Below are positions 6,101-40,322 of a stretch of DNA of 64,000 nucleotides, one piece after another. The DNA comes from Liolophura sinensis. Lineage: Eukaryota > Mollusca > Polyplacophora > Chitonida > Chitonidae. How positions within the stretch are numbered: position 1 is the first letter of the stretch; each line of letters begins with the position of its first letter. The notes below the pieces were generated by a model that was given only the letters and a program-made list of their open reading frames with translations, made no database searches and had not been told where the DNA came from. A program made the translations under genes and the position numbers. The stretch spans positions 930,001 to 994,000 of the forward strand of contig NC_088304.1 in assembly GCF_032854445.1 (NCBI RefSeq), in the 5' to 3' direction.

Positions 6101-9100
6101 AATTCATTCAAGAAGAAAAAATGTCAGAGATGGCTTGTATGTATTATAAAGAAGCCATGGAAAACTTTAGTGGCAGAATTAAGATGTACAATGTAGCTTG
6201 AATGTGTAGAAATAATATTAGATAGCCAGATTGGAGGGAATTGAAGAGGAGATGAAATTAGACAATTTAAAAAGAAATTTATAAGTAAATGGCCAGGATT
6301 ATTTTGTGGGGCACGTCTTTTGTTCAAGGCCATGTCAACAGTGATTCATGGCAGTTTATTCTCATTTTAAGAAAAGTTGTCAAGACTTGTTGCACTGAAA
6401 GTTAAAAATGATCTCCAACACCATCAGATATGAGCTCTATTTAACAGTTTCAGAAAAATATATTTAAAACTACCTTTACTTTTACATGTTTTGGGGATTT
6501 TTTATAGATTTTTGAGAGACTTCCTCTTTTCTGAATTCAGTGCAATAAAACGCTTGAATTCTGCAGTGATCTTTATGGTCTGTATTGATAATTTTACTCA
6601 CTAGTGATTTTATAATGAGGGATTTCTTACTTTTATTTTCACCTTTGACAGAAATTGGGATCAAGTTTACTAGTGCAGTGTCTGCAGCAGTTTAGATATT
6701 TCAACAAAAGTCGTAGCTTTAGGGAAAAAACTTCAGGCATCACAAAATGTGTCATTTTTTGAATTTAGTATTTTTGGTTAAGATACACACACATGGCAGG
6801 GCAACTTTATAAATTTAATTTTGTATTCCTAGTCTAAATACATGTACAGCCAGATAAGCATCCTTAACAAATAGATGATTATAAAACACAGTATTAATTT
6901 GAGCAGGAAATGTGAATCCATTAAATTCACCCTTAATTATCTCCCTGGAAGGTTAAAGGACGAGGAACAGTTGAAGGAGGACTTGATTCGTGCGAAGCTG
7001 GCTGAGAAGGAGGCTAAGGACAAGCTGTTGGCAGCGACAATGGCCCAGCGTTTGCCCGCGTACGCCGTGGACGGAGGAGTGTATGGAGACGGTCCGCTAC
7101 CGCCACTCGGTTTTCAGTCAGATCTCCCACAGAACGGCTCCTCGGTAGGCTTGACTTTAAAGCGTACATAGTTCCCACTTGTCCTTGAAGTTTTTGAAAG
7201 TACCCAGACTTAAATTTTAATGAAAAGTTTTCAAGACTATTTCAAGTTCATGAAAAAGAGCTCATTTTTGTACAAGTCCTTAATTTTACAATAGTAAATA
7301 TTTTTCAGTTCTTATGTTCGAAATAAGACGGATAGATGTAGTACCAAAATCCCCACCTGAAGTTTTGTACGTAAACTGAAAGGTCCTTGAAAGTGCTGGA
7401 AAACATAGGATATTAGGTCTTTCAAAATTCTGTTAAAACATTCATTTTTTTTTAGGGTGGGAACCCAAAGTGTAATGAAATAGCTTGATATTGATATCTG
7501 GGAAACTAATGATAATCTTTTGATGATTGGCCATCATTCTAATCCTTTCATGATTGGTTGTAATCCATAATCCTAATGTAATCCTTCCAAGATTGGTCAT
7601 GATAGTAATCCTGCAATGATTGGTCATCATGATTATCCCTCCAGAATTGGTCGTCATCATGATCCTGCAATGATTGGTCATCATCCCAATCCGTCCTTTT
7701 ACAGAGGAATGGCAGATATGAATTTATTTCAATGGGCACTGCACAAGTAACTTCAAAAGGCCCTAATCTCTTACAGAATCCACCATCTGAACATCAATTT
7801 TTCTCACTTTATTGACCACCACAAATGCTAAATCAGTTTAAACAATCTTAAGGTTGTCAGTGTTACCTAAGATTGTAACTCATCCTGATGTTGTGTTTAC
7901 AGACAGGCTATGCCTTCTCTGGCCTGACCTCTGACTTCAGCGACCTCAAGCTTGACCCCAACCTTGACCCCAACCTGCCTCAGAATGACACCGAGGTCAG
8001 TTGTGAGCTGATGACTGGCCCAGACATGAATCAGCTGTCCTTGGAGATAGAGAAGGAGAGGTGGGTAAACTACCAATCATGTACCTGGATTTGTGTACTG
8101 TATTTCAAATTTTCCAAAATTTAAATTTTTATGTTTGTTTTGTTTTGAAATACTACTGAAAAAAAGTTTCACCTTCAAAAGTAATGTTTTGTGACCTTGA
8201 CTTGTCATTAAACATTTACAAATTTTGCACAATTTGTTAGGGCCGGCTCAGAGGGTTTTGACCATAAAGTTGTCCAGTAGCAAGTTTTCAGGCAAATGAG
8301 TTGTACACAGAATGATGTGCTGTTATAAGATGGTGTCACAGTTTTATGGCATAGTAAAGTTGACTATTCCTTAATATGGCAGGTTTCATTTCAGATGATG
8401 ATAGGAGATTTTTTTTTATTTAATTGGTTAGTATTGAACATGGTACTGATCAATTGAGCATGGTACTGATATTTTGATGGCAGTCAGATTTTATTACACT
8501 TGAGTTGATCATGACTTTTTGTCCAATGGCGAACAGGATCTGTCATTTCTCATATCAAATTTAAAACCAGCCAAATCTGTGTATGGGTGGTGTGCAGTAA
8601 GCGATTTCCTTCTTTCTGATTGGCCTCTGGATTCTTTATTATAATTGCTTCAAGTATTGTCCAATATTGATGATATTTTGCGTGCAGAAAACTAGCTTGA
8701 TCCTTGTCTTTTTGTATAATATAATGAAAGACATACAGCACAGAGAGTAAAACCAGAGTAGCGACGACAGTGTGATGGACATACGGCACATAGAGTAAAA
8801 CCAGAGCAGTGACGACGGTGTGATAGATGTACAGCACAGAGAGCAAAACCAGAGCAGCGACAACAGTGTGATGGACATACGGCACATAGAGTAAAACCAG
8901 AGTAGCAACGACAGTGTGATGGACATACGACACATAGAGTAAAACCAGAGCAGTGACGACAGTGTGATAGACGTACAGCACAGAGAGTAAAACCAGAGTA
9001 GCGACGACAGTGTGATGGACATACGGCACATAGAGTAAAAACCAGAGCAGTGACGACAGTGTGATAGACATACAGCACAGAGAGTAAAACCAGAGCAGGG

Positions 9101-10790
9101 ACGACAGTGTGATAGACGTACAGCATAGAGAGTAAAACCAGAGCAGTGACGTCAATGTGATAGACGTACAGCACAGAGAGCAAAACCAGAGCAGTGACGA
9201 CAGTGTGATAGACGTACAGCATAGAGAGTAAAACCAGAGTAGCGACGACAGTGTGATAGACGTACAGCATAGAGAGTAAAACCAGAGCAGTGACGTCAGT
9301 GTGATAGGCGTACAGCACAGAGAGTAAAACCAGAGCAGTGACGTCAGTGTGATAGACGTACAGCACAGAGAGTAAAACCAGAGCAGTGACGTCAGTGTGA
9401 TAGACGTACAGCATAGAGAATAAAACCAGAGCAGTGACGTCAGTGTGATAGATGTACAGCACAGAGAGTAAAACCAGAGCAGTGACGTCAGTGTGATAGA
9501 CGTACAGCACAGAGAGTAAAACCAGAGCAGTGACGTCAGTGTGATAGACGTACAGCATAGAGAATAAAACCAGAGCAGTGATGTCAGTGTGATAGACGTA
9601 CAGCACAGAGAGTAAAACCAGAGCAGTGACGTCAGTGTGATAGACGTACAGCATAGAGAATAAAACCAGAGCAGTGACGTCAGTGTGATAGACCTACAGC
9701 ACAGAGAGTAAAACCAGAGCAGTGACGTCAGTGTGATAGACGTACAGCACAGAGAGTAAAACCAGAGCAGTGACGTCAGTGTGATAGATGTACAGCATAG
9801 AGAATAAAACCAGAGCAATGACGTCAGTGTGATAGATGTACTGCACAGAGAGCAAAACCAGAGCAGTGACGTCAATAATGTTAATGGCAATTTATGTGAC
9901 GTCACTTGTCTAGAATTACTCAAAATGCTGTGTTGTCATCACATTTAACAGATCATAACATTAAGAAATGCAAAAGGAAAATAACAATAAACAATGCAAA
10001 GTAAGTCCTACATACTGAGCATAGGAGATAAAATTTCTTTGTTTAACAATTGTTTTCAGGGTGGACTATATGGAGAAGAGTAAACATCTGCAGGAGCAGC
10101 TGAAGGAGCTGAAGACAGAGATAGAGGTGCTGAAAGTGGAGGAGAAACAGACAGACATGGACAGGCTTCATGATGAGAACGTGGAGAAAGGAGAATCTAA
10201 GTACTCCACACTGAGACGGGTAAGTCGGCACACTGGATCCTCCATAATAATATCTGTAATTGTGTGTATAATGTCACTGAGTACATGATAAGCACATGGA
10301 GAAAGGAGAAACCAAATACTCCACACTGAGACGGGTAAGTTGGCATGCTGGATTCTCCACAAGAATACCCATAATGCGTGCATACTGTCACTGAGTACAT
10401 GATGAGAACGTGGAGAAAGGAGAATCCAAGTTCTCCACACTGAGACGGGTAAGTGGGCACGCTGGATTCTCCTTATTCTCCATAAGAATATGTGTAAAGT
10501 GGGTAATGTCCTTGAGAAAGTTTCAACAGTGTAAACATTGTGTAAGTGAACATGTTTTTGTTGGAGTGAAAATGTTTCAAAAGTGCTCATAACATCCACC
10601 AGAATGGGCGAGTATGACAAAGTAGATATGTTAAAATGGTGAACCTGTGATGACATCTGTAAACTGTTATACTGCCGCTCCACTACTTTTGTGTAAAGTA
10701 TACCAAATATAAGTACAGTATTATTGATTTTGGTTGCAGATTCGCCTAGGAACCACAAGATCGAGGGTGTCGTTCTTTGAGGAGCTCTGA
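184..10790 (+). CDS. NF2: Merlin (neurofibromin 2), 3' five coding exons
   Basis: Membrane-cytoskeleton scaffold of the ERM family and a tumour suppressor upstream of Hippo signalling. Visible exons are 184-269, 6952-7144, 7903-8060, 10060-10219 and 10740-10790, all with AG/GT borders and matching phases (2, 0, 2, 0). They encode the end of the alpha-helical region (TEEEYRQMEFRAREAEM; LKDEEQLKEDLIRAKLAEKE), a variable linker (TGYAFSGLTSDFSDLK), then the C-terminal block with MNQLSLEIEKER, VDYMEKSKHLQEQLKELKTE and the terminal SRVSFFEEL. Human merlin has the matching segments LSMEIEKEK, EYMEKSKHLQEQL and SRVAFFEEL, so merlin fits better than ezrin/radixin/moesin, which end in a different actin-binding tail. 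The FERM exons lie beyond the left edge. Introns hold large minisatellites, and the fourth visible exon's donor region is triplicated. Confidence 0.95.
540..2985. repeat. 108-bp minisatellite, about 22 copies, in an NF2 intron
   Basis: Tandem copies of a unit containing GTTAGAGACACATATCTGCAG, AACTTCACGTCAGCCGTTAC and CAGTCATGAAATCTTC. Most units are 108 bp. A few carry CCACAG in place of CCAG (+2 bp), which breaks the otherwise long minus-strand reading frames. Copies differ by only a few substitutions (GTGTATG / GTACATG / GTATATG; TATATGC / TATGTGC), implying recent amplification or homogenisation. It lies between the NF2 exons at 184-269 and 6952-7144. The 36-residue periodic antisense frames follow from the unit being a multiple of three and are not evidence of a gene. 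Confidence 0.97.
2986..4400. other. NF2 intron sequence, no gene seen
   Basis: AT-rich intronic DNA with no recognisable coding signal. A conspicuously more GC- and pyrimidine-rich patch lies at about 3490-3700; short open frames there on both strands match no family I know. Confidence 0.5.
4405..5160. repeat. 34-37 bp minisatellite, about 20 copies
   Basis: Repeats of CAGCTGGACCAGGTGTGGCT followed by GGTGCATGCCTCA and a short variable end (CATCAT, ACAT or CAT), giving unit lengths of 34-37 bp. GC-richer than the surrounding NF2 intron. Each unit carries the hexamer CAGGTG. Confidence 0.96.
5155..5320. repeat. About 55-bp tandem triplication
   Basis: Three nearly identical copies of a block running from TGCATGCCTCAACATCACAC through GGCCATCTTCAGGC to GGTTGA. 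It directly abuts the previous array and shares its TGCATGCCTCAACATCA edge, so it seems to have grown from the array's last unit plus unique flank. Confidence 0.93.
5741..5965 (+). mobile_element. tRNA-derived SINE, full length with target-site duplication
   Basis: The 5' end GGCCTCCGTAGCTCAGTCG is a tRNA-like head with an A-box. A degenerate B-box-like stretch follows, then a conserved body (GGTTTCCTCCCACCATAATG), the tail motif CTTGAGTACGGC and an (AAAT)n end. The element is flanked by a perfect 17-bp duplication, TATTATTGTGTTTTTAG, at 5724-5740 and 5966-5982, diagnostic of LINE-mediated insertion and indicating a fairly young copy. It sits in an NF2 intron. The tail resembles metazoan SINE families seen in molluscs; the exact family is inference. 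Confidence 0.92.
5985..6950. other. NF2 intron, no further feature
   Basis: Unique AT-rich intronic sequence ending at the acceptor CTCCCTGGAAG before exon 6952-7144. Nothing recognised. Confidence 0.5.
7490..7690. repeat. Degenerate roughly 35-bp tandem repeat
   Basis: Five to six diverged copies built around CAATGATTGGTCATCAT and AATCCT in the NF2 intron 7145-7902. Older looking than the other arrays because copies differ in both length and sequence. Confidence 0.8.
8735..9872. repeat. 48-bp minisatellite, about 23 copies
   Basis: Tandem units containing GAGTAAAACCAGAGCAGTGA, CGTCAGTGTGATAGACG and TACAGCACAGA, each 48 bp. Two zones are visible: CGACAGTGTGATGGACATACG variants at the left (8735-9250) and the homogeneous CGTCAGTGTGATAGACGTAC type at the right. 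Because 48 is a multiple of three the minus strand stays open for 457 codons, but this is a periodicity artefact. A diverged unit plus the right-hand flank recurs at 58676-58985, so the array arose inside a dispersed sequence. Confidence 0.96.
9870..9965. repeat. Dispersed segment flanking the 48-bp array
   Basis: The stretch with AATGTTAATGGCAATTTAT and GAATTACTCAAAATGCTGTG, then TTGTCATCACA, recurs with few differences at about 58885-58952. It marks this locus as part of an interspersed element rather than a purely local repeat. Confidence 0.8.
10168..10460 (+). repeat. Triplicated 3' end and splice donor of the penultimate NF2 exon
   Basis: A roughly 114-bp segment is present three times, starting near 10168, 10284 and 10398. 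Each copy contains the coding end of the exon (GGAGAAAGGAGAA, then CTCCACACTGAGACGG) followed by the donor GTAAGT and early intron sequence. Copy 1 is the donor of exon 10060-10219; copies 2 and 3 lie in the intron and keep identical ACTGAGACGG|GTAAGT donors at about 10336 and 10450. Reading on from copy 1 in frame meets a stop at 10286-10288, so use of a downstream donor would replace the FFEEL tail. Confidence 0.93.
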
Positions 10791-19540: not shown

Positions 19541-22500
19541 TTAGTCATCCAAATGCTGATCTCGCCAGTACTGGGCAATATTCGTCCCTTTGTACTTCTT
19601 TTTGGCCCTTAAGCCTGTTACTATGGTAGGTCTCCCTGGAAATGCATTCACACCCCCAAACATGGGGTCATTGTCGGGGTCAAACCTGAGATAGTCCAGC
19701 TGAATGTGAAGGTTACGAGGCAGGTCAAGGTTGGCTAAATCCTCATAGGAATTTCTATCGTGAACTGGTGTGCTGTAGAAGTTAATCACATCAGCGTTGG
19801 TGTTTATGTCAGAAAGTTCTGGATTTGGGATGTCATGATCAAATTCTTTGATACACCTTGTGAGAATCTGTAACAGAAGAACAAATACACCTCATGAGAA
19901 TATGTAGCAAGAAAACGAATACAGATTGTGAGAATCTGTAACCCAGAGAACAAATACACCTTGTGAGAATCTGTAGCAAGGAAACGAATACAGCTTGTGA
20001 GAATCTTCAACCCAGAGAACAAATACACCTTGTGAGAATACGTAGCAAGAAAACGAATGCAGCTTGTGAGAATCTGTAACCCAGAGAACAAATACACCTT
20101 GTGAGAATCTGTAGCAAGAAAACAAATACACCTTGTGAGAATCTGCAACCAGAGAACAAATACACCTCATGAGAATCTGTAGCAAGAAAACAAATACACC
20201 TTGTGAGAATCTGCAACAAGAGAACAAAAAAAACAAATACACCTTGTGAGAATCTGCAACCAGAGAACAAATACACCTTGTGAGAATCTGCAACCCAAAG
20301 AACAAATACACCTTGTGAGAATCTGTAGCAAGAAAACAAATACACCTTGTGAGAATCTGCAACCAGAGAACAAATACACCTCATGAGAATCTGTAGCAAG
20401 AAAACAAATACACCTTGTGAGAATCTGCAACAAGAGAACAAAAAAAACAAATACACCTTGTGAGAATCTGCAACCAGAGAACAAATACAGCTTGTGAGAA
20501 TCTGCAACCCAAAGAACAAATACACCTTGTGAGAATCTGTAGCAAGAAAACGAATACAGCTTGTGAGAATCTGCAACCAGAGTACAAATACACCTTGTGA
20601 GAACCTGTAGCAAGAAAACAAATACACCTTGTGAGAATCTGCAACCCAAAGAACAAATACACCTCATGAGAATCTGTAGCAAGAAAACAAATACACCTTG
20701 TGAGAATCTGCAACCAGAGAAAAAATACACCTTGTGAGAACCTGTAGCAAGAAAACAAATACACCTCACGAGAATCTGTAGCAAGAAAACAAATACAGCT
20801 TGTGAGAATCTGCAACCAGAGAACAAATACACCTTGTGAGAACCTGTAGCAAGAAAACAAATACACCTCATGAGAATCTGTAGCAAGAAAACAAATACAC
20901 CTTGTGAGAATCTGCAACCAAAGAACAAATACGCCTTATGAGAATCTGCAACCCAGAGAACAAATACACCTTGTGAGAATCTGCAGCAAGAAAACGAATA
21001 CAGCTTGTGACAATCTGCAACCAGAGAACAAATACACCTCATGACAGCCTGTAGCAAGAAAACAAATACACCTCATGAGAATCTGTAGCAAGAAAACAAA
21101 TACACCTTGTGAGAATCTGCAACCAGAGAACAAATACACCTCATGAGAATCTGTAGCAAGAAAACAAATACAGCTTGTGAGAATCTGCAACCAGAGAACA
21201 AATACACCTTGTGAGAATCTGCAACCAGAAAACAAATACACCTTGAGAGAATCTGCAACCAGAAAACAAATACACCTCATGAGAATCTGTAGCAAGAAAA
21301 CAAATACACCTTGTGAGAATCTGCAACCAGAGAACAAATACACCTCATGAGAATCTGTAGCAAGAAAACAAATACACCTTGTGAGAATCTGCAACAAGAG
21401 AACAAAAAAAACAAATACACCTTGTGAGAATTTGCAACCAGAGAACAAATACAGCTTGTGAGAATCTGCAACCAGAGAACAAATACGCCTTGTGAGAATC
21501 TGCAAAAAGAGAACAAATACACCTTGTGAGAATCTGCAACCAGAGAACAAATACACCTTGCGAGAATCTGCAACCAGAGAACTCCTTGTGAGAATACCTT
21601 GTGAGAATCGGCAACCCAAAGAACACACCTCATGAGAATCTCAGACAAGAGAGCAAATACTCCTCATGAGAATCTGTACCAAGAGAAAGACATCTTGCAA
21701 GAATTTTCTGCAACCACAGAACAAATAACAAATCTCCTGAGAATTTTTGGCACCAGTGGACAAATACACCCCATGTGAATCTGCAACCAAAGAACAAATA
21801 CGCCTAGTGAGAATCTGCAACAAATAACCCTTGACAACCTGCTGCCAGCTAACAATTAAACCACACAAGAAGCCAGTAAAAGATAATTCCTACAGGTAAC
21901 AATACACAGGTTTGGAGACATGACGCTACAACAAGAGAATGACACCCTTTGTGATTATACGTCGTCCCTGTACGGCACGGTAGGGTCAATCTTAGTTTTA
22001 ACATGGGGTAGTATATAGAATTTAGAACACTAATTAAAAAGGGTTAGATTAAACCGAATTATGTTCTATCAGAATTATTACCTTAGACTGTTGAGGTGTC
22101 AGATGTCTGAAAGAACTAGCTCACTAAAAGCCCTACATATTACACCTTTAAAATATCCATCATACAGTATATTTTTACCGATCCATGTACAGGACAGGAT
22201 GCATATGAGGGGAAATAAATACTGCAAGTGATTCCTTACATCTTCAACTTAAAACATTCCCGGGCTGACACAAATGAACATGAGTTATCTCCCTTCCATT
22301 AGGATACATGTATGTCTAGAAAATCTGACATGTACAAAAAACAGCCCTAGAATGTCTCCCCACCACCCCGCCCCACTCCAGCTGCCCTGCATATTACTGA
22401 TTTTGGTACACAACTTAAAACAATAAACAGATAAACAAGCCTGAAAATAAAACTTTCATTGATGATTCTAATCACAAGTTCTTTGAGAACTATGTGTTTT

Positions 22501-25500
22501 GCTGTTTGTTCTGTTGTACTGCACAGAAGGTTCACATTACTGTACAGTAACCGCACAGTGCTATGTGGCTGAAGAGCTGTACAGTGTATCCCACAACTGC
22601 AGAGCACTCTACACACAGAACTGAGAGGCTGTTATGTTGTACTGTAAGGTACAGCCACTCATTGTGCGGTACCCATATGAAACTGCCACACAGTACTGTG
22701 AGGCTGTTGTGTTGTACTGTAAGGTGCAGCCACTGGCTGTGCGGTACCCAAATGAAAGTGCCACACAGTACTGTGAGGCTGCTGTGTTGTACTGTAAAGT
22801 GCAGCCACTGGCTGTGCGGTACCCAAATGAAAGTGCCACAGTGCTGTGAGGCTGTTGTTTTGTACTGTAAGTGCAGCCACTGACTGCAGTACCCAAATGA
22901 CACTGCCATACAGTGCTGTGAGGCTGTTGTGTTGTACTGTAAGATACAGTCACTGACAGTGCAGTACCCATATGAAACTGCCACACAGTACTGAGAGGCT
23001 GTTATGTTGTACTGTAACGTGCAGCCACTGACTGTGCAGTACCCATATGAAACTACCACACAGTACTGTGAGGCTGTTGTTTTGTACTGTAAGGTGCAGC
23101 CACTGACTGTGCAGTACCCATATGAAACTACCACACAGTACTGTGAGGCTGTTGTTTTGTACTGTAAGGTGCAGCCACTGACTGTGCGGTACCCATATGA
23201 AACTACCACACAGTACTGTGAGGCTGTTGTTTTGTACTGTAAGGTGCAGCCACTGACTGTGCAGTACCCATATGAAACTACCACACAGTACTGTGAGGCT
23301 GTTGTTTTGTATTGTAAGGTGCAGCCACTGACTGTGCGGTACCCAAATGAAATACAGTAGTGTGATGCTGTTGTGCTGTACTGTAAGGCTGTTGTGTCAT
23401 TCGGTCACTGATTGTGTAGTACGGATATAAAACTGGTCCACAGTACTGAGCATGCACTGCAAAGGACTGTCCAGTATGTGGACCTTTCTGTGCATTATTG
23501 TACGGCTCAAAACCACACGGTATCGTGAGGTCACAGCATTTTGTATGGTTGTTTGGAGTTAAATGATACCTTCATCATTATTTCAGTCAAATTATGAGTA
23601 CCTTAAATTTGACCGTCCTATCCTCTAAGGACTGTGTTCTCCACTCAGGGGTGTTGCCACATACTTCCTCTGTTATTCTCTGGATTCTCTCTTCAACATC
23701 ATTGGGTGGAGAATAGCCCTGAGATGATTGTAAGCTGTCAACAACAACACTCAGTAATTAGGCCAGGTAAATTTAGAGCAATACAAACTGAATTGTTAAA
23801 TATGCACCTTTCCTAAATATTTGTTCCTCCTGAACAAATACTTAAACTCAAGACCTACTCTATTTCCTCAACCTTTTTGCATGGGAAGGAGCAACTTTCA
23901 TTGCAATCTATGCACATTTAAAAAACTACACTGGTCGGATTGGCCAATTTTAGGACTTCACAAAAGGTATAATTTTATCACAGAATATGGCTGAAAAAAC
24001 ATGCGAAAGGTTGAAGAATTACGGTAGTTGTACCACCTGTAGCTGAACCACCTGTAAATGTACCACCTGTAGCTGAACCACCTGTAGATGTACACCTGTA
24101 GATGTACCACCTGTAGTTGTACCACCTGTAGTCGTACCACCTGTAAATGTACACCTGTAGATGTACCACCCGAAGATGTACCACCTGTAAATGTACACAT
24201 GTAGATGTACCACCTGTAGCTGAACCACCTGTAAATGTACCACCTGTAGATGCACACCTGTAGATGTACATGTAGATGTACACATGTAGATGCACACCTG
24301 TAGATGTACACCTGCAGATGTACCACCTGTAGATGTACCCCCTGTAGACATACACCTGTTTATGTACAGCCTGTTGATGTAGCACCTGTAGATGTACAAC
24401 CTGTAGATGGACCACCTATTAATGTAGCACGTGTAGATGTACCACATGTAGATGCACACCTGTAGATGTACCACCTGTAGATGTACCACCTGTAGATGTA
24501 CCACCTGTCGATGTACCACCTGAAGATGCACACCTGCCATAAGCAATTCAAGGACTGCACATACCAAATTTGAAAGCAGCTTGAAAAATAAGGGCAGAGA
24601 TAAATGTGCAGAAAGGTGAATTTGACTAAATATACAGAATGGTAATGCTGACGGATCATTAATTTATTTATCTGATTGTGTTATACGCCGGACTCAAGAT
24701 TATTTCACTTATACAAAGGCGGCCAGCATTATGGTGGGAGGATACTGGGCATAGCCCGGGGGTAACCCACGACCATCCGCAGATTCCTGGCAGACCTTCC
24801 CACATGTAACCAGAGAGGAAGCCAGCATGTGCCCTGCTGGAACACTAACCACTAGAGCTTGGAGGCCCCTGGTGGCACACTAACCACTAGACCTCGGAGG
24901 CCACTGGTGGCACACTAGCCACTAGACCTCAGAGGCCCCTGGTGGAACACTAACCACTTGACCTCGGAGGCCACTGGTGGCACAATAGCCACTAGACCTC
25001 GGAGGCCCCTGGTGGAACACTAGCCACTAAACCTCGGAGGCCCCTGGCAGCACACTAACCACTAGACCTCGGAGGCCCCTGGTGGCACACTAACCACTAG
25101 ACCTCGGAGGTCCCTGGTGGTACACTAACCACCTCAGAGGCCCATGGCGGCACACTGACCACTAGACCTCAGAGGCCCCGGATGGCACACTAACCAGTGG
25201 AACTCGGAGGCCCCTGGTTATGGACTGGTTGGATTTGATGTCAACAAAACAAAACAAAACAAAACTCTTCAATCAATTTCAACACTACATCTAATAATAA
25301 CACTGCAATTGTTATCTGGTAGGGAAAACAAAGGAAAACAAAGATTCATACCAAGGCAGCATCATAACTGGTTAAGGTTTTTATTTTAATTAGCATATCA
25401 CTAGCTCACCGTGAGCACAACACTATCATACCACTAGCTCACCGTGAGCACACCACTTGCTTGCCATGAGCACACCACCAGTACACCACTTGCTCACCCT

Positions 25501-28172
25501 GAGTACACTACTAGCTCACCACGAGCACACCACTATCATACCACTAGCACATCACCAGCTCACTACTAGCATACCACTAGCTCTCAAAGAGGACACCACT
25601 AGCTCACCATGAGCACACCACTATCATACCACTAGCTCACTGTGAGCACACCACTAGCTCATCGTGAGCACACCACTTGCTTGCCACAAGCACACCACTA
25701 ACTCACCACAGGCGCACCACTAGCACACCACTTGCTCACCCCGATCACACCACTATCATACCACTAGCACACCACTATCATACCACTAGCATATCACGAG
25801 CACACCGCTATCATACCACTTGCTCATCCCAAGCACACCATTAGCTGACCACGAGCACACCAATAGCACACCACTATCACAACACTAGCACACCACCAGC
25901 TCACCACAAGTATACCACTTGCTCACCCCCAGCACACCACTAGCACACTTGTAGCTGGCTTGTTTTTCAAGCATTTGATTACTATGCACCCGGTCATCAC
26001 TTGACAGTGTCAATATCATGAACCTGGCCATCACTTGACGGTGTCATTACCATGCACCCGTCCATCACTCAACAATGTCATTACCATGCACCTGGCCATC
26101 ACTTGACGATGTCATTACCATGCACCTGGTCATCACTTGATGGTGTCAGTACCATGCACCTGGCCATCACTTGATGGTGTCATTACCATGCACCCGGCCG
26201 CAACTTGACGCTGTCATTACCATGCACCTGGCCATCACCTGACAATTTCATTACCATGCACCTGGCCATCACCTGACGCTGTTATTACCATGCACCTGGC
26301 CATAACTTGACAATTTCATTAACATGCACACGGCCATCACTTGACGGTGTCATTACCGTGCACCTGGTCATCACTTGACAATGTCATTACTGTGCACCTA
26401 GCCATCACCTGACGATGTCATTACCGTGCACCTGACCATCACTTGACGATGTCATTACCATGCACCCAGCCATCACTTTACGGTGTCATTACCATGCACC
26501 TGACCATCACTTGATGGTATCATTACCATGCACCCGGCCATCACTTGATGCTGTCATTACCATGCACCTGGTCATCACTTGACGATGTCATTACCATGGA
26601 CCCGACCATCACTTGACGGTGTCATTACCATGCACCTGGCTTACCACTGTGAGTATTCTTTATGTAAAGACACTATATAGGATGTTTTTGGTAAAAAATT
26701 GTTATTCAAATCAAATTTACCAAGAACAGCCAAAATTATTGTCTTTCAATAAGTATCAAATTCTAAACAATGCTAAAAATGCACAATATATTGTCTTAAA
26801 TTGATTCTAAAATTTAAGAGGAGGTAAATATGTAACATGCTTCATAAAGTTATGAACTTTATCAATGATTTTGAACGGTAACCTGTGCGCAGAGGAGGCT
26901 GATATATCCGGATTAGGGTTTATGACCAAAATACCATAGCATTGTCCTATTTCAAACTCTTGAGTGAAGCATTGTGTTTACAGTACATGAAAATATATCA
27001 CAAAAAGGGCATAACTGTAAATTTTAAACTGTTAAAAATTAAAGCTGTGATTCATTTTCAATAAGCTTTGAATAATAACAATAAATTATATGATACTACA
27101 TTAAGCCAATTTGTAGATACAGTAAAAATCTTCAATCTTTTCTACCAGTAAAGCACTTGAGTACGGCGTAAAACACTGATCAAATCAAATCTAAACTACT
27201 TGTTTCAGTGGAATTTACGCACACATTTATTTTGAAAATGCTCCAAAAAATGACTTGTTTGCATTACTAAAGATGCAAGCTTCATAAAACTGTGCAGATT
27301 TTTTCTCTACAATCCATAGTTCTCTCAGAATGTTTCAAAATATTGATTTGCTGAGATGGTCGAAAATGTCAAACGTTTAGGGTATGCCAAAATATGACAA
27401 TATGAAAACAAATCAATGTTTCTGACAATAGGTGTGAAATGTTAATTCATTCGTATACATGTACCTTCGCTTTTCAAGTGACTGAAACCTTTCTTCGACT
27501 GATGGACCATCAAATTTTGTGTTCCTCTTTCTCGGTTCATTCCCTGTGGCATCCAACTTAGGATCATCTGCCTTTCGCTTGAAGAAAGCAGACCTGGTAG
27601 ATGTCTAAGTAACAACAAGGAAACCTATGACAAATCAGTAATTGGTATGTATGTATGTATGTTTGTATGTAAGTATGTTTTGGGTTTTACTGGTGTCATG
27701 CCGCAGACACTAGACATAACACTTCACCCAGTCACATCATACTGACACCCGGCCAACCAGTCCTGTGGGGTATAATGCGACTGGGTGGGGTGTAATGTCT
27801 GGTGTCTTTGGCGTGATACTACAGTGGTGGCAGAACTTAGGCGGCATGAACTCCTTCGCCAAAAGAAGACCGTAAAATTATTTGGTGCGACATAAAGCCC
27901 CATGCATACATACATGCATGTACTGTAGCTTGCTTGTGTTAATTGGGTCACTTTCAGGCCTTCGCTACATCTGAAATAGCACGTCTGACAGGCCTGCTAC
28001 TGTTGACTGCGTTGTTGTTGTTTTTCAACATAAAAGTTTAAACTGATGTGAAATGCAACGTTACTCCACTGTTAGCACTTCTAAGTACATTTAACTATAC
28101 AACAACGATTTCAAAACTTATTACCCGAAACACCTGACCAGGATTTCGACACATATGTCGTACAACTATCAT
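19541..28172 (-). CDS. MRPL50: Mitochondrial large-subunit ribosomal protein mL50
   Basis: Component of the mitochondrial 39S ribosomal subunit. Four exons join in phase: 28172-28125 (MIVVRHMCRNPGQVFR, an Arg-rich mitochondrial presequence), 27604-27465 (TSTRSAFFKRKADDPKLD onward), 23734-23602 (GYSPPNDVEERIQRITEEV; NTPEWRTQSLEDRTVKFK) and 19867-19541 (ILTRCIKEFDHDIPNPELSD; DVINFYSTPVHD; LDLPRNLHIQLDY). Human mL50 has YTPPEDLQSRLES, SLEDSRLKF, VLDFYNVPIQD and NLPPNLKI at matching places. The predicted protein is 215 aa against about 158 in human, with a C-terminal extension of roughly 50 residues (FGGVNAFPGRPTIVTGL). The first exon rests on its start codon, donor and phase only. Introns are packed with minisatellites; intron 3 holds a splice-acceptor array. 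Confidence 0.9.
19868..21650 (-). repeat. Splice-acceptor minisatellite: intron-3 acceptor plus exon-4 start of MRPL50, about 50 copies of 34 bp
   Basis: Read on the minus strand, each 34-35 bp unit is ATTCTCACAAGGTGTAT, then a pyrimidine-rich TTGTTTTCTTGCTACAG or TTGTTCTCTGGTTGCAG. The 17-nt ATTCTCACAAGGTGTAT is exactly the first 17 nt of MRPL50 exon 4 (19867-19851), and the preceding tract ends in CAG like the genuine acceptor TTCTTCTGTTACAG. The array therefore consists of repeated copies of an intron/exon boundary directly upstream of the real one. Units alternate between CTACAG and GGTTGCAG types, and some positions carry TCATGAGG in place of TCACAAGG. Diverged copies continue to about 21835. 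Confidence 0.95.
22615..23370. repeat. 75-bp minisatellite, about 10 copies, in MRPL50 intron 3
   Basis: Units contain CAGTACTGTGAGGCTGTTGT, GTACTGTAAGGTGCAGCCAC and GGTACCCATATGAAACT. Period 75, so both strands stay open over long stretches. Right-hand copies (23000-23340) are nearly identical; left-hand copies are shorter and diverged. Confidence 0.95.
24025..24540. repeat. 15-16 bp minisatellite, about 33 copies, in MRPL50 intron 2
   Basis: Repeats of CACCTGTAGATGTAC with or without an extra C, with variants (AGCTGAAC, GTAGTTGTAC, CATGTAGATG). Each consensus unit contains the E-box hexamer CACCTG. Confidence 0.94.
24659..24868 (-). mobile_element. Full-length SINE, reverse orientation
   Basis: On the minus strand: head GCCTCCAAGCTCTAGTGGTT, body GGATGGTCGTGGGTTACC and CTCCCACCATAATGCTGG, tail CTTGAGTCCGGCGTATAAC and an AAATAAATTAA end. 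Same family as 5741-5965 with a clearer A-box (CTAGTGGTTAGTG, as in tRNA-Glu). Its head end runs straight into the array at 24861-25215. Confidence 0.9.
24861..25215 (-). repeat. 34-35 bp minisatellite grown from the SINE tRNA-like head, about 10 copies
   Basis: On the minus strand every unit reads GGCCTCCGAGGTCTAGTGG, TTAGTGTGCCACCAGG, i.e. the first 30-odd bases of the adjoining SINE including its pol III A-box (GGTCTAGTGGTTAG). The SINE lies immediately downstream in the same orientation, so the locus is a string of partial tRNA-like heads followed by one complete element. A short (CAAAA)n run follows at about 25240-25266. Confidence 0.93.
25400..25955. repeat. Degenerate minisatellite of CACCACTAGCTCACC type
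   Basis: Irregular repeats of CCACTAGCTCACCGTGAGCA with inserted CACTATCATAC modules. Some units include the near-palindrome GCTCACCGTGAGC. Unit length varies, suggesting an older composite array in MRPL50 intron 2. Confidence 0.9.
25975..26640. repeat. 34-bp minisatellite, about 19 copies, in MRPL50 intron 2
   Basis: Units contain CATTACCATGCACCTGG and CCATCACTTGACGGTGT, with substitutions at CpG-like positions (CACCCGG / CACCTGG; GACGGTG / GATGGTG), a pattern compatible with CpG decay. The last unit ends abruptly at 26640. Confidence 0.95.
26641..27464. other. MRPL50 intron 2, unique part
   Basis: AT-rich sequence with one SINE tail fragment near 27148-27192 (CACTTGAGTACGGCGTAAAAC). Otherwise nothing recognised. 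Confidence 0.6.
27640..27915. repeat. Probable interspersed repeat bounded by tetranucleotide runs
   Basis: A block with GCCGCAGACACTAGACAT, GACTGGGTGGGGTGTAATG and GCGACATAAAGCCCCATG lies between (GTAT)n at the left and CATGCATACATACATGCAT at the right, in MRPL50 intron 1. The block structure suggests a mobile repeat but no second copy is present here, so classification is open. Confidence 0.45.
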
Positions 28173-31429: not shown

Positions 31430-32223
31430 TAGAGCACAGGGGCAGTCTCATCAGTATGCCAGGGTTCAACTCATGTGTTGTACAGGGGCAGTCTCACCAG
31501 TATCCCACGATTAACCTCATCTGTTGTACAGGGTCAGTCTCACCAGTATACCAGGGTTCAACTCATCTGTTGTACAGGGGCAGTCTCATAAGTATGCCAG
31601 GGTTCAACTCATCTGTTGTACAGGGGCAGTCTCACCAGTATTCCAGGGTTCAACTCATCTGTTGTACAGGGGCAGTCTCACCAGTATCCCACGATTAACC
31701 TCATCTGTTGTACAGGGTCAGTCTCACCAGTATACCAGGGTTCAACTCATCTGTTGTACAGGGGCAGTCTTACCAGTATACCAGGGTTCAACTCATCTGT
31801 TGTACAGGGGCAGTCTCATCAGTATACAACAATTAACCTCATCTGTTGTACAGGGTCAGTCTCACCAGTATACCAGGGTTCAACTCATCTGTTGTACAGG
31901 GTCAGTGTCACCAGTATACATCAATTAACCTCATCTGTTGTACAGGGTCAGTCTCACCAGTATACCAGGGTTCAACTCATCTGTTGTACAGGGTCAGTCT
32001 CACCAGTATACAACAATTAACCTCATCTGTTGTACAGGGTCAGTCTCACCAGTATACCAGGGTTCAACTCATCTGTTGTACATTGTCTGTCTCACCAGTA
32101 TACCACGATTAACCTCATCTGTTGTACATTGTCTGTCTCAACAGTATACCAGGGTTCAACTCGTCTGTTGTACAGGGTCAGTCTCACCAGTATACCAGGG
32201 TTCAACTCATCTGGTGTACAAGG
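31430..32223. repeat. 46-bp satellite, left arm, about 17 copies
   Basis: Units run CAGTCTCACCAGTATACC, AGGGTTCAACTCATC, TGTTGTACAGGGT. Three interleaved unit types occur: one with CAGGGTTCAACTC, one with CACGATTAACCTC, and one with ACATTGTCTGTCTC. The array resumes in register at 36485 after the transposon. Since 46 is 1 mod 3, open frames recur with a three-unit (46-residue) period; these are not genes. Confidence 0.97.
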
Positions 32224-33956
32224 CAGAGATGCCAACACATACGAATTTTTCGTATTTTATACGAATTTTCCATTTGAAAACAACACTACGACCAGTTACC
32301 ATGAAACTACGAAAAAAATATATTATGCTACTACGAAAATGTCGAAAGTACAAAAAATATATTTTTCGGATGTTGAAATCCGTATTTTCACACAACCCTT
32401 TCCCAGTCTCCATGCAAGGCCTTGTTGCTTCCAAAACTGCCGATCCTGGGAGAATGAACCTTGTCAGTGCGTGTAACGCGAATGTTGATTGGTTGGATTT
32501 TCACGCTTTTTCGGACACCTGGCCAATGAGTAAACTGGATGCATAAGTTCTTGTTCCTAGGTGTGTTAGGTTTTCCGCCATGACCGAAGCCAGAAGGAAG
32601 ATGGAACGCGTTCAGCAACTTCAGGGAAAGAATAATCAACGGTTCAATGATAAATATACATCCATGTGGCCCTGTATTCGGCCATCGAGGAAGGGAGTGC
32701 ATTACGCGACGTGTACAGTTTGCAATAGTGACATTTCGGTCCGACACAGTGGCCAGTACGATATAAAACTCACATCGCTTCGCCGAAACACAGAGACAAC
32801 ATCAACACAGCAAGTTCGACCCATTCGATCGAGAACTTCATCACAGTCACACGGTCGAGTGGCTCTGACAACTCTGTTATCAAGGCAGAATGTCTGATGA
32901 CTAGTTTTCTAGTTGAATGCAACGTACCTGTCGCCACTGCTGACAAACTTTCGCCACTAATGTATAAGATGTTTCCAGACAGCAAAATCGCCAAGTCATT
33001 CGCTTGTAAACGAACCAAAACTACTCACATCATTCATGAGATGTCTAAGGATTGTGTTCAAAAATTGTCACAAGTGATTGTGGACAATGTCTTTGGCATC
33101 GCTACTGATGGTAGCAATGATAGAGGGTATTCTAATCAAATATACCCAGTTGTCATTAGATACTATGATCCAGCTGTCAGTAGAGTATTGACTGGACTTT
33201 TAAGCCTCCCAGCATGTGACGGGCGTAGTACAGGTGAAAATATTTTCAAACTATTGGATAATGAAGTGAAGGAACACTCAGAATGGAGAAAGTGTGTGGC
33301 TTTTTGTAGTGACAATGCAAATGTGATGATGGGACGAAATAAAGGTGTGGCAGGGTTTGTCATTCAGGAGCATCCAGATATCTTTGTGACTGGTTGTGCA
33401 TGTCATCTGTGCCACCTTGCTGCATCCAAAGCAGCCAGTGAGATCAATCATGTATCAAACATTGAGGAGTTGCTTGTTGATGTATACTTCTACATTGAGA
33501 AAAGCTCCAACAGAACCAAGAGCTTGATGGAGTTTCAAGAACAATGTGGAAGTGACACTTTAAGAATTCTAAAGCATACAAACACTCGTTGGCTGTCACC
33601 AGCCGCTTCAATTGACAGGCTGTTGAAGATGTGGGAGCCACTTTCTCAGTTCTTTGAGCAGGAGTGTGCTACTTCAGTGAAAACCGGTCGCAAACGGAAG
33701 CTTACTGAGGTAATCTGTTACATAAAGCTGTAGTTCAGTTGCAAATCAATAATATGAAATTCATATTTTTTATATTTAGTAACCACAATTGTTTTCTGTA
33801 GCTTCTTAAATATACAGACTCCATAAAGTTTGCAAACAGCTTTCCTGCCCTCTAACATGTCTAAAGTTATGAGGAATAGGTGATTGGTATGTTTTTTTAT
33901 CCCATCAACAATAAAGAAACATAGTGTTAATGGCTTTCATAATTTTCATACATGTT

Positions 33957-34142
33957 TGGGGAGACAATTTGCTAAGGGAAAGATACCTCTATCTCCCATG
34001 TTGGCCTAATGTATGTAGAAAAAAATAACAACACGTATTCAGATATGTGATTCCTTATAATTTATTTACATATATGATATGTGTATTAATTTAGGCCAAC
34101 ATGGGCGATGGAGGTATCTTTCCCTTAACAAATTGTCCCCCC
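33957..34142. mobile_element. Foldback MITE in the transposase intron
   Basis: Long inverted repeat: GGGGAGACAATTTGCTAAGG, GAAAGATACCTCTATC and CCCATGTTGGCCTAA at the left, matched inverted by TTAGGCCAACATGGG, GGTATCTTTCCC and AACAAATTGTCCCC at the right. Arms of about 50 bp surround an AT-rich centre of about 75 bp. No clear target duplication. Confidence 0.85.
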
Positions 34143-34150
34143 TAACATGT

Positions 34151-34199
34151 ATTGAAGTGGAGGAATGTACATATGATACGAACATTCCTCCGCTTCAAT
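34151..34199. repeat. 18-bp-stem perfect-looking hairpin
   Basis: ATTGAAGTGGAGGAATGT is followed after 13 bases by ACATTCCTCCGCTTCAAT, an inverted repeat with one mismatch in 18. It lies just 3' of the foldback MITE in the same intron and may be a second small insertion or a structured RNA segment. Confidence 0.8.
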
Positions 34200-35199
34200 A
34201 AAAAAAGCAATTGTTAATGTTTAGAGTAGATATGTATTGTACATGTATATGAAAAATACTGTCACACACAGTAATGTACAGCCCTCAATGATGCATTAGT
34301 TGTGCACAGTGGATAGGACATTAGACACCCAAGCAACCATATCACCACTGTTTAATATAAATTATTTATGCTTTTTATTTGTTTTTAAACCAATTTTCTT
34401 TTCTTTTACAATTGCAGAAAGACACTTCCAGTGGCAACTTCAAGTCAAGACCTGAGAGAGTTCTGCATGCCTTGACAGATCCAAACACCAAGCTCTACTG
34501 CCTTTTCCTACAAGCAGCTATTCCAACATTCAACACCATGAACCTAGTGCTACAGAGAGAGGAACCCATGATCCACTTGGTTCACTCTAAGTGTGTCACA
34601 TTTCTAACCAAGTTGCTGGTTAGGTTTATTACTCCAGATGCCATCACCAAAGCTGAAAACTTGCAGACTCTTGACTTCCATGAGAGAAAATTGCAGAAGT
34701 CCAGAGAAGATATCGTCATCGGACAAAATGCCAGGTGTTACATGGAGCAGTGCAAGGAACAGGGCCTGATGACCCCTAAGGACAGAAGCCTGTTCTTTGA
34801 CAGTGTGAGGAAATACTATGCAACTGCTGCCACTTACATCACTCAAAAATTCCCTCTCAATGACCCTGTGCTACAAAACGCCAATGTTGTTAATATCCAG
34901 AGGAGAACAGAGGCAAAGTTCTCTGACCTACTATACTTTGTACATAGGTTTCCCTGTATAATGCCAGATGATGCCACAGAAGATGACTTGCAGATGGAGT
35001 TTCTTATGTACCAGGTAGATCCTCTGCCTTCAGTGGACTCAGACATGAGAATTGACCAGTCTTGGCATTTGTTAGGACAGTTAAAGCAACTGGATACCAC
35101 ACAGCCAAAGTACAAAGTGTTGTCACATGTGATGTTGGGAATACTGGTAATCCCTCACAGCAATGCTGATTCTGAGAGAATTTTCTCCACTGTGCCTAA

Positions 35200-35917
35200 A
35201 GCCGCGTTTAGACTACAGCCGGGCCGGGCCCATTTTAGCAGGGTCGCGCTTGATCAGGGCCGAGCCCCCTTGACAAGTACCGTTTACATTACACGCCTCG
35301 CTGGCGGGCCAAATCCATTATCACAAACAGGAACGACAACTCAGGTTGAGTTGGGCTATTTATTTGTGGCACTCTTCAGACATTGGAGGTACAAACACTT
35401 TATTCAGCTGCGAAAATGGCGCTGCCAGTAGTTGTAAGGCAAAGATACAGACGGCCTTTTCGAAACTCATATACATCCACCTGTATGATGTTCTCGTTGT
35501 GACGAGCGCTCTCAAGTTGCGCCTGCACGTTTTCCTCGCCCCAAATAGCTAATAGCTGTTCTGTCTCCTCTTTTGTCCAATTAGCGCCACGATTTGTTGA
35601 CATATTTAAATTCTTATTGTTCGAAAAAAAGTGCGCCAACTGAAAAGCTGGAAGTGGAAGGTCAGAGGAAGTTGCCTTTAAGCATGCGCAGTTAAGTCCT
35701 CTGAGCGGGCCAGGCACGGTGACGCGTTTACACTACACGTTTAGCTAACCGAGCCGAGCTTCAGCTGGGCCGAGCCTACCTCTCGTTGAGGGGTTCGGCC
35801 CGGTCAAATCTGGCACGGTGCCGAGTACGCTTAACCCGTTTAGACTACCCAATTTTTTGCCGGGCCGTGCCCCATCAGGGCCGAGCCCGGTTGAAAAGCG
35901 GTAGTGTAAACGGGGCT
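35200..35917. mobile_element. PIF/Harbinger-type non-autonomous element nested in the hAT transposase
   Basis: Flanked by TAA at 35197-35199 and 35918-35920, the three-base TWA duplication typical of PIF/Harbinger. Imperfect terminal repeats AGCCGCGTTTAGACTAC and AGCCCCGTTTACACTAC. The ends are GC-rich and contain further copies of the CGTTTAnACTAC core near 35282, 35724 and 35838. The minus strand holds a short Myb/SANT-like stretch (GANWTKEETEQLLAIWGEEN, about 35600-35490), as in the second protein of Harbinger elements. No transposase remains, so it would depend on another copy. Confidence 0.83.
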
Positions 35918-36484
35918 TAAGAACCAGACAGAATTCCGTCCCAGTATGGGTGTTCCCCTGCTTCAGAGTCTAATGATCACAAAAACTGACATGCAAGCCA
36001 GAGACAAACCCTGTTTTCAACAAGAGTTTACTGCAGACTTTTTATCAATGGCCAAGAGTGCCACTTACAGGGGTCTTAATTCAATTGAATAGAGACAGTC
36101 ACAGTGTTGGATACTAATTGTTAATATCTTAAGTTTTCCAGTAGTGTTAATCTTCAAGGCGATACAACACAAATACACACATGACAGAAGTCTACGGAAA
36201 GTGTTTTTGTGGCAAAGGACTTCTTTTTGTATTGGAAAAATAAAGCTTGAAGCATTAAAGAAATTGCTTTGATTGTTTATTTATTTTTCACTTCCTCCAG
36301 AGTTGGCATATCCACTCACCCCCATGCTGTCCGTGTCGGACTGTCGTCATGACTGAAATACTGTTAAACACGACGTGAAACATCAGTCACTCGCCCACTC
36401 CCATTATGTGGGTGTTAATGACAGTAAACTACAGATTTTGTTTTCCAGACTACAAATTGGCTTAAGTTGAGGTTGGCATCTCTG

Positions 36485-38455
36485 ACAAGGGCAGTCTCAC
36501 CAGTATACCACGATTAACCTCATCTGTTGTACAGGGTCAGTCTCACCAGTATACCAGGGTTCAACTCATCTGTTGTACAGGGGCAGTCTCACCAGTATAC
36601 CAGGGTTCAACTCATCTGTTGTACAGGGGCAGTCTCACCAGTATACCAGGGTTCAACTCATCTGTTGTACATTGTCTGTGTCACCAGTATACCAGGGTTC
36701 AACTCATCTGTTGTACAGGGTCAGTCTCACCAGTATACCAGGGTTCAACTCATCTGTTGTACAGGGGCAGTCTCACCAGTATACCAGGGTTCAACTCATC
36801 TGTTGTACAGGGGCAGTCTCACCGGTATACCACGATTAACCTCATATGTTGTACAGGGTCAGTCTCACCAGTATACCAGGGCTCAGTTCATCTGTTGTAC
36901 AGGGGCAGTCTCACCAGTATACCAGGGCTCAACTCATCTGTTGTACAGGGGCAGTCTCACCAGTATACCACGATTAACCTCATCTATTGTACAGGGTCAG
37001 TCTCACCAGTATACCAGGGTTCAACTCATTTGTTGTACAGGGTCAGTCTCACCAGTATACCAGGGTTCAACTCATCTGTTGTACAGGGTCAGTCTCACCA
37101 GTATACCAGGGTTCAACTCATCTGTTGTACAGGGTCAGTCTCACCAGTATACCAGGTTTCAACTCATCTGTTGTACAGGGTCAGTCTCACCAGTATACCA
37201 TGATTAACCTCATCTGTTGTACAGGGTCAGTCTCACCAGTATACCAGGGCTCAACTCATCTGTTGTACAGGGGCAGTCTAACCAGTATACCACAATTAAC
37301 CTTATCTGTTGTACAGGGTCAGTCTCACAAGTATACCAGGGTTCAACTCATCTGTTGTACATTGTCTGTCTCACCAGTATACCACGATTAACCTCATCTG
37401 TTGTACAGGGGCAGTTTCACCAGTATATAACAATTAACCTCATATGTTGTACAGGGTCAGTCTCACCAGTATACCACGATTAACCTCATCTGTTGTACAT
37501 TGTCTGTCTCAGTAGTATACCACGATTAAACTCATATGTTGTACAGGGTCAGTCTCACCAGTATACCAGGGTTCAATTCATCTGTTGTGCAGGGGCAGCC
37601 TCACCAGTATACCAGAGTTCAACTCGTCTGTTGTACATTGTCTGTCTCACCAGTATACCACGATTAAACTCATCTGTTGTATAGGGTCAGTCTCACCAGT
37701 ATACCAGGGTTCAACTCATCTGTTGTACAGGGTCAGTCTCACCAGTATACCAGGGTTCAACTCATCTGTTGTACAGGGTCAGTCTCACCAGTATACCAGG
37801 GCTCAACTCATCTGTTGTACAGGGTCAGTCTCACCAGTATACCAAGGGTCAGTTCATCTGTTGTACAGGGGCAGTCTCACCAGTATACCAGGGTTCAACT
37901 CATCTGTTGTACAGGGTCAGTCTCACCAGTATACCAGGGTTCAACTCGTCTGTTGTACAGGGTCAGTCTCACCAGTATACAACAATTAACCTCATCTGTT
38001 GTATAGGGTCAGTCTCACCAGTATACCAGGATTCAACTCATCTGTTGTACAGGGTCTGTCTCACCAGTATACCAGAGTTCAACTCATCTGTTGTACAGGG
38101 TCAGTCTCACCAGTATACCAGGGTTCAACTCATCTGTTGTACAGGGTCAGTCTCACCAGTATACCAGAGTTCAACTCATCTGTTGTACAGGGGCAGTCTC
38201 ACCAGTATACCAGGGTTCAACTCATCTGTTGTACAGGGTCAGTCTCACCAGTATACCAGGGCTCAGTTCATCTGTTGTACAGGGTCAGTCTCACCAGTAT
38301 ACCAGGGTTCAACTCATCTGTTGTACAGGGCAGTCTCACCAGTATACCAGTGTTCAACTCATCTGTTGTACAGGGTCAGTCTCACCAGTATTCCAGGGTT
38401 CAACTCATCTGTTGTACAGGGTCAGTCTCACCAGTATACCATGATTAACCTCATC
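36485..38455. repeat. 46-bp satellite, right arm, about 43 copies
   Basis: Same unit types as 31430-32223, dominated by the ATACCAGGGTTCAACTCATC unit, with occasional CACGATTAACCTC and ACATTGTCTGTCTC units. Several neighbouring units are identical, which argues for continuing turnover. Confidence 0.97.
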
Positions 38456-40322
38456 TGTATCAAGGGATCAGTGTTAACAGTATGCCATGATTAACCTCAT
38501 CTGTATCAAGGGATCAGTGTTAACAGTATACTAGGGTTAAACTGACCTGTATTAAGGAATCAGTCTCATCAGTATACCAGGGTTAGCTTCACCTGTATTA
38601 TAGGATCTGTCTCAGAACTGTACTAGGGTTAGCCTCACCTGTATTAAGAGATCTGTCTCAGCACTGTACTAGGGTTGGCCTCACCTGTATTAAGGGATCA
38701 GTCTCAGCACTGTACTAGGGTTAGCCTCATCTGTGTTAAGGGATCTGTCTCAGCACTGAACAAGGGTTAACCTCACCTGTAGTAAAGGATTAGTATCAGC
38801 ACTGCACTAGGGTTAGACTCACTTGTGTTAAGGGGTCATTCTCAGCACTGTACTAGGGTTAGCCTCACCTGTGTTAAGGGATCTGTCTCAGCACTGAACA
38901 AGGGTTAACCTCACCTGTAGTAAAGGATTAGTATCAGCACTGCACTAGGGTTAGACTCACTTGTGCTAAGGGGTCATTCTCAGCATTGTACTAGGGTTAG
39001 CCTCACCTGTGTTAAGGGATCTGCCTCAGCACTGAACAAGGGTTAACCTCACCTGTAGTAAAGGATTAGTATCAGCACTGCACTAGGGTTAGACTCACTT
39101 GTGTTAAGGGATCATTCTCAGCACTGTACAAGGGTTAGTCTCACCTGTATTAAGGGATCATTCTCAGCACTACTAGGGTTAGCTTCACCTGTATTAAGGG
39201 ATCAGTCTCAGCACTGTACTAGGGTTAGCCTCACCTGTATTAAGGGATCTGCCTCAGCACTGAACAAGGGTTAACCTCACCTGTAGTAAAGGATTAGTAT
39301 CAGCACTGCACTAGGGTTAGACACACCTGTGTTAAGGGATCTGTATCAGCACTGAACAAGGGTTAACCTCACCTGTAGTAAAGGATTAGTATCAGCACTG
39401 CACTAGGGTTAGACACACCTGTGTTAAGGGATCATTCTCAGCACTGTACAAGGGTTAGTCTCACCTGTATTAAGAGATCTGTCTCAGCACTGTACTAGGG
39501 TTGGCCTCACCTGTATTAAGGGATCATTCTCAGCACTGTACTAGGGTTAGCCTCACCTTATTAAGAGATCTGTCACAGTACTGCACAAGGTTTAGCCTCA
39601 TCTGTACTAGGGTTAGCCTCGCCTGAATTAAGGGATCTGTCTCAGCACTGTACTAGGGTTAGCCTCACCTGTATTAAGGGATCTGTCTCAGCAGTGTACT
39701 AGGTTTAGCCTCGCCTGTATTAAGGGATCTGCCTCAGCACTGTACTAGGGTTAGCCTCACCTGTATTAAGGGATCAGTCTCTGCACTGTACAAGGGTTAG
39801 CCTCACCTGTATTCAGGGATCATTCTCAGCCCTGTATTAGGGTTAGCCCCACCTGTATTAAGGGATTATTCTCAGCACTGTACTAGTGTTAGCCTCACCT
39901 GGGATCTGTCTCAGCACTTTACTAGGGTTAGCCTCACCTGTATTAAGGAATTTGTCTCAGCAGCATATTTGAGTTAGCCTCACCTGTATTAAGGGATCAG
40001 TCTCAGCCCTGTACTAGGGTTAGCCACACCTGTATTAAGGGATCATTCTCAGCCCTCTAGTAGGGTTAGCCACACCTGTATTAAGGGGTCATTCTCAGCA
40101 CTGTACTAGGGTTAGCCTCACCTGTATTAAGGGATCTGTTTCAGCACTGTACTAGGGTTAGCCTTACCTGTATTAAGGGATCTGTCTCAGCACTGTACAA
40201 GGGTTAGCCTCACCTGTATTAAGGGATCAGTCTCAGCACTATACTAGGGTTAGCCTCACCTGAATTAAGGGATCTGTCTCAGCACTGTACTAGGGTTAGC
40301 CTCACCTGTATTAAGGGATCAA
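38456..40322. repeat. Diverged subfamily of the 46-bp satellite, about 40 copies
   Basis: Units run TCTCAGCACTGTACTAGGG, TTAGCCTCACCTGTATT, AAGGGATC. They align position by position with the 46-bp satellite to the left. Transitional units fill 38456-38640 (e.g. TCAGTGTTAACAGTATAC). A local higher-order block (GAACAAGGGTTAACCTC, GTAGTAAAGGATTAGTATC, GCACTAGGGTTAGAC) recurs at about 38755, 38890, 39030, 39265 and 39355. Confidence 0.94.

Follow-up and report, generated by a model that had tools for sequence, protein, structure and literature searches.

Which acceptor does a gene use when the end of one of its introns has been copied dozens of times? The question is raised by a 64-kb stretch of the Liolophura sinensis genome (contig NC_088304.1, positions 930,001 to 994,000), the whole of which was analyzed and is referred to here as the window, with all coordinates counted from its first nucleotide. 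On the minus strand of the window lies MRPL50, whose intron 3 ends in 51 similar AG-bearing acceptors, a natural experiment in splice-site choice, in which the acceptor taken might be set by distance, by exon context or by definition of the terminal exon. Tandem duplications of exon-intron boundaries are known from amphioxus as "mirages" (passages of PMC3087553), and we consider it very probable that the MRPL50 array is a near-neutral minisatellite of this type within intron 3, with the last copy normally being the one spliced.

Exons 3 and 4 of MRPL50 were recognized by homology. The coding part of exon 4 (19541..19867, minus strand) comprises 108 codons and a stop, and its reading frame matches solved mL50 chains (phmmer, best E 1.6e-06) as well as human MRPL50 (tblastn, 1.3e-08); its translation (19867-19541) begins ILTRCIKEFDHDIPNPELSD and continues to the stop. 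Exon 3 (23602..23734, minus strand; tblastn with the same query, 5.4e-06) is translated from 23734 to 23602 as LQSSQGYSPPNDVEERIQRITEEVCGNTPEWRTQSLEDRTVKFK and is followed by the donor AAG^GTACTC, the caret marking the splice point. The start of exon 4 at 19867, which the initial annotation had proposed, is well supported by sequence comparison, because human MRPL50 runs without a gap across the exon 3/exon 4 junction (…VKFK to ILTRC… here, …LKFN^LLAH… in human); the mL50 match of the frame downstream agrees with this start, and a CAG at 19870-19868 directly precedes it. Exon 4 is probably the terminal exon, because an AATAAA (19524-19519) follows its coding part.

Immediately upstream of the genuine junction at 19867, cyclic unit alignment and Tandem Repeats Finder (TRF) delineated a mirage-type minisatellite on the minus strand (19868..21814), in which the boundary between intron 3 and exon 4 recurs 56 times, head to tail, from 21814 to 19868. 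The unit is exactly 34 nt long in 41 of the 56 copies and 31-43 nt in the remainder. TRF itself reports a span of 19851-21582 with a period of 34 and 49.9 copies; outside that span, at the array's far edge, lie further units that have decayed. The initial annotation, which had placed about 50 stacked acceptor copies between 19868 and 21650, was correct in substance and slightly understated the number; its start stands, but its far end does not, the decayed copies reaching some 160 bp further. Each unit joins 17 nt from the start of exon 4 to 17 nt from the end of the intron and thereby spans the exon-intron boundary. The exon part seen most often, ATTCTCACAAGGTGTAT, matches 19867-19851 exactly; this stretch (19851..19867, minus strand) comprises the 17 nt with which exon 4 begins and, according to the sequence and the unit table, gave rise to the exon-derived half of the unit. 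The array contains 37 distinct unit forms among the 56, and stretches of it recur exactly: one of 191 nt at a shift of 214, one of 152 nt at shifts of 964 and 1178, and one of 116 nt at a shift of 204. In a BLAST junction test, the MRPL50 intron 3/exon 4 junction was spanned at 50 other places, whereas the same test applied to 27 other junctions yielded none for 26 of them and 2 for a donor of NF2. Because 26 of 27 other junctions have no such copies, the MRPL50 boundary array is not a product of chance.

The copies have largely retained the signals of a splice acceptor, bearing out the claim that amplification of the boundary created dozens of candidate sites. With the genuine site left out, AG is kept at 50 of 56 upstream junctions and is lost only at junctions 3, 4, 7, 12, 52 and 56, with no loss among junctions 13 to 51; the losses are thus confined to the vicinity of the array edges, and the central decoy AGs have not been purged. 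A YTNAY branch-point-like motif lies 15-45 nt upstream of 49 of the 56 junctions, and the exon-derived half carries a donor-like [AG]AG^GT in 40 of the 56 upstream units. Before the genuine acceptor, the sole YTNAY in the 15-45 nt interval lies at 28 nt and is an exon-derived CTCAC/T, which is a candidate branch point only, as so short a motif often occurs by chance. What is unusual about the array is its copy number and the presence of acceptor, branch-point-like and often donor-like motifs within a single unit.

To assess the consequences for the protein, we took the 56 upstream acceptors one by one and read on from each across the array and into exon 4. The unit length is indeed 1 mod 3, and the longest open stretch within the array measures 301 codons (21072-20170), close to the approximately 296 codons noted initially. 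Seventeen of the 56 acceptors are in frame with exon 4, all 17 reads meet a stop inside the array, and an intact frame is obtained from none of the 56. In the frame of exon 4, these 17 reads meet their first or last stop at 21643, 20938, 20383 or 19894. The TGA at 19894-19892 (19892..19894, minus strand), within the last upstream copy and nine codons before exon 4, is common to all 17 and terminates every in-frame upstream read. Since no upstream acceptor leaves the frame intact, the last copy is required in this sequence for a working protein from one acceptor, being the only copy that by itself yields an intact product. Isoforms with ILTRCI-repeating insertions in a full-length protein, envisaged in the initial annotation, are therefore rejected for this sequence as far as use of one upstream acceptor is concerned.

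We infer that splicing occurs at 19867, that the array is near-neutral and that it arose by the following mutational process. A 34-bp segment across the MRPL50 intron 3/exon 4 boundary would have been tandemly duplicated, and the duplicates would then have been expanded and homogenized by slippage or unequal exchange, the resulting array now presumably belonging to intron 3. The last copy would normally be spliced, being the only one that directly abuts the real exon, which has the polyadenylation signal, and the upstream copies would be removed with the intron. Long exact internal repeats combined with AG loss only at the edges present the usual picture of homogenization from which the edges are left out, and the persistence of the central decoy AGs fits copies that do little harm. 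Several observations weigh against this explanation. In a crude ranking by a simple acceptor matrix, built from generic frequencies, the genuine acceptor comes 9th of the 51 AG-bearing junctions, with ties, so that it does not stand out by primary sequence alone. Nor does folding mask the copies: two folded stretches gave z values of +1.5 and +0.9 relative to shuffles, being, if anything, less structured, and the idea that RNA structure hides the copies was rejected. Furthermore, in-frame read-through is prevented by as few as four stops across the array, and at bottom by the one TGA, so that another allele could differ.

A more novel reading is that the array serves as a splice-site multiplexer: some MRPL50 transcripts would use copies inside it, which would act either as unproductive acceptors, reducing output to a degree set by allele length, or as in-frame pseudoexons of 45 nt. 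We judge it unlikely; were it true, an intermediate in exon or intron birth would have been caught with dozens of copies. In the first variant, upstream acceptors would be used appreciably and the frameshifted or stopped transcripts degraded, so that array length would tune MRPL50 output. The AGs kept at 50/56 and the YTNAY motifs at 49/56 junctions agree with such use, as does the fact that 8 upstream junctions outscore the real site, with others tied, and a frameshift or stop does ensue from all 56. However, homogenization alone explains the retention of AG in the middle of the array, and the amphioxus mirages examined by reverse transcription PCR (RT-PCR) are described, in passages of PMC3087553, as being regularly spliced; we regard appreciable unproductive splicing as distinctly improbable. 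In the second variant, a pseudoexon would be defined by the acceptor of one unit and a donor-like site, AAG^GTGTAT, in a later unit, as in the model of exon/intron birth of Ebner et al. (2010). Since all the signals fit in one unit, small in-frame pseudoexons are possible: the donor-like motif is present in 40/56 upstream units, and pairing of 50 acceptors with 43 donor-like sites gives 102 in-frame, stop-free pseudoexons, 32 of which are 45 nt long. In addition, a gene model of lancelet PGBD5 annotates repeat copies as an exon, albeit without support from expressed sequence tags, but the authors left this exon out (parts of PMC3902484). Moreover, 45-nt exons with such donors would probably be weak, and the insertion would land inside a region conserved with human MRPL50, which leaves pseudoexons a very slim chance. 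Finally, internal stretches repeated exactly over 191 and 152 nt are hard to assemble, but an assembly artefact that inflated or collapsed the copy number is hardly credible, given that the 37 distinct unit forms among 56 and the decayed edges resemble a real array and that an error might alter the count without creating the unit.

The preferred explanation, a near-neutral array with splicing at 19867, can also be viewed against the repeat content of the window. A second gene, NF2 (merlin), carries a boundary array of a 114/115-bp repeat (10169..10472, plus strand), identified by TRF, tblastn, donor analysis and the junction test, so that such arrays occur in two genes of the 64-kb window, one at an acceptor (MRPL50) and one at a donor (NF2). 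The NF2 exon at 10060-10219 (plus strand; tblastn 1.0e-17 with a human NF2 sequence) ends in CGG^GTAAGT, and the repeat consists of the last 51 nt of this exon and the following intron, placing donors at 10220, 10335 and 10449. CGG^GTAAGT is intact in all three donor copies; splicing from the second or the third leads to a stop after …MSLST, and the downstream donors would alter and truncate the C-terminus of merlin. Elsewhere in NF2, a coding exon contains a 12-bp tandem repeat (7942-7976, plus strand) encoding DPNLDPNL.

Across the window, tandem arrays in 34 merged intervals account for 30.5% of the sequence, a heavy minisatellite load. Amplified junctions number 2 of 28 in four genes, namely NF2, MRPL50, TUBD1 and one that we take, from its motifs, to encode a metalloproteinase; the junctions were placed by homology and splice consensus, those of the metalloproteinase gene by motifs alone. 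When the intervals, merged by hand from the TRF output, were shifted circularly, a mean of 8.3 junctions fell inside arrays, compared to the 2 observed, and 2 or fewer did so in 2% of the shifts. There is thus no sign that splice sites are preferred targets; this suggests that arrays rather avoid them. With arrays so abundant and junctions hit less often than by chance placement, amplification directed at splice sites is needless, and no such process has to be invoked for MRPL50. One array in the window, a 46-bp minisatellite (31436-32220 and 36488-40331), is split by an element at 32224-36484 whose inverted ends are CAGAGATGCCAAC/GTTGGCATCTCTG and which is flanked by the 6-bp repeat ACAAGG; we presume the element to be transposase-like, of ZBED/hAT-like type.

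MRPL50 intron 3 itself harbors another array, with a 75-bp unit (22612..23388, minus strand; TRF and junction test), no copy of which spans either junction of the intron in the junction test. Further upstream, 27465..27593 (minus strand) is a probable exon 2, placed by an open frame and splice consensus only and with an uncertain acceptor position; exon 1 was not found in the window. A Pfam search with exon 4 gave no match up to E 0.001, and an Rfam scan of the whole window gave none at gathering scores.

How, then, does the MRPL50 array relate to known systems? Among the matches listed in our literature searches, no title concerned an acceptor array of this size; no search by the name MRPL50 was made. 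In human IFI6 (6-16), as in MRPL50, splice sites are multiplied by a minisatellite lying at an exon boundary, which provides multiple donors there (Turri et al. 1995, as cited in parts of PMC4526556); IFI6 differs in that the donor side is affected and that two repeat units further downstream reportedly serve as donors, whereas the MRPL50 array is on the acceptor side. Intron gain by tandem duplication (the Rogers model; human internal tandem repeats, sections of PMC2812944) likewise involves copies that supply potential acceptors and donors, but the MRPL50 array sits in an intron that already exists, and no gain of one is shown. The statement in the initial annotation that no minisatellite class of this sort had been described does not hold, as the amphioxus mirages are such a class (passages of PMC3087553 and PMC3902484). 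Ebner et al. adopted the name earlier given for Adh3, and the Adh3 data and their own RT-PCR suggest that mirages do not interfere with regular splicing; they found two haplotypes, with 6 and 3 units, and proposed intron gain from mirage repeats (passages of PMC3087553). Like repeats occur in lancelet PGBD5, in a report that cites Adh and TnC (parts of PMC3902484). In these mirages (Adh3, the globins BflGb6 and BflGb9, and PGBD5, with TnC cited), many, though not all, units keep AG/GT and units at the cluster edges are excluded from homogenization (same passages), just as the MRPL50 array has AG in 50/56 and donor-like sites in 40/56 upstream units and loses AG only near its edges. The difference is one of scale with respect to BflGb6, which has 3-6 units of 150-160 bp (passages of PMC3087553) compared to a 34-bp unit present in 56 upstream copies in MRPL50; for Adh3, the unit size is stated as 10-72 bp, and the high copy number is stated relative to BflGb6, not Adh3. 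The MRPL50 array is a member of the known mirage kind, with a copy number that is high compared to BflGb6, and indicates that boundary arrays can exceed 50 copies.
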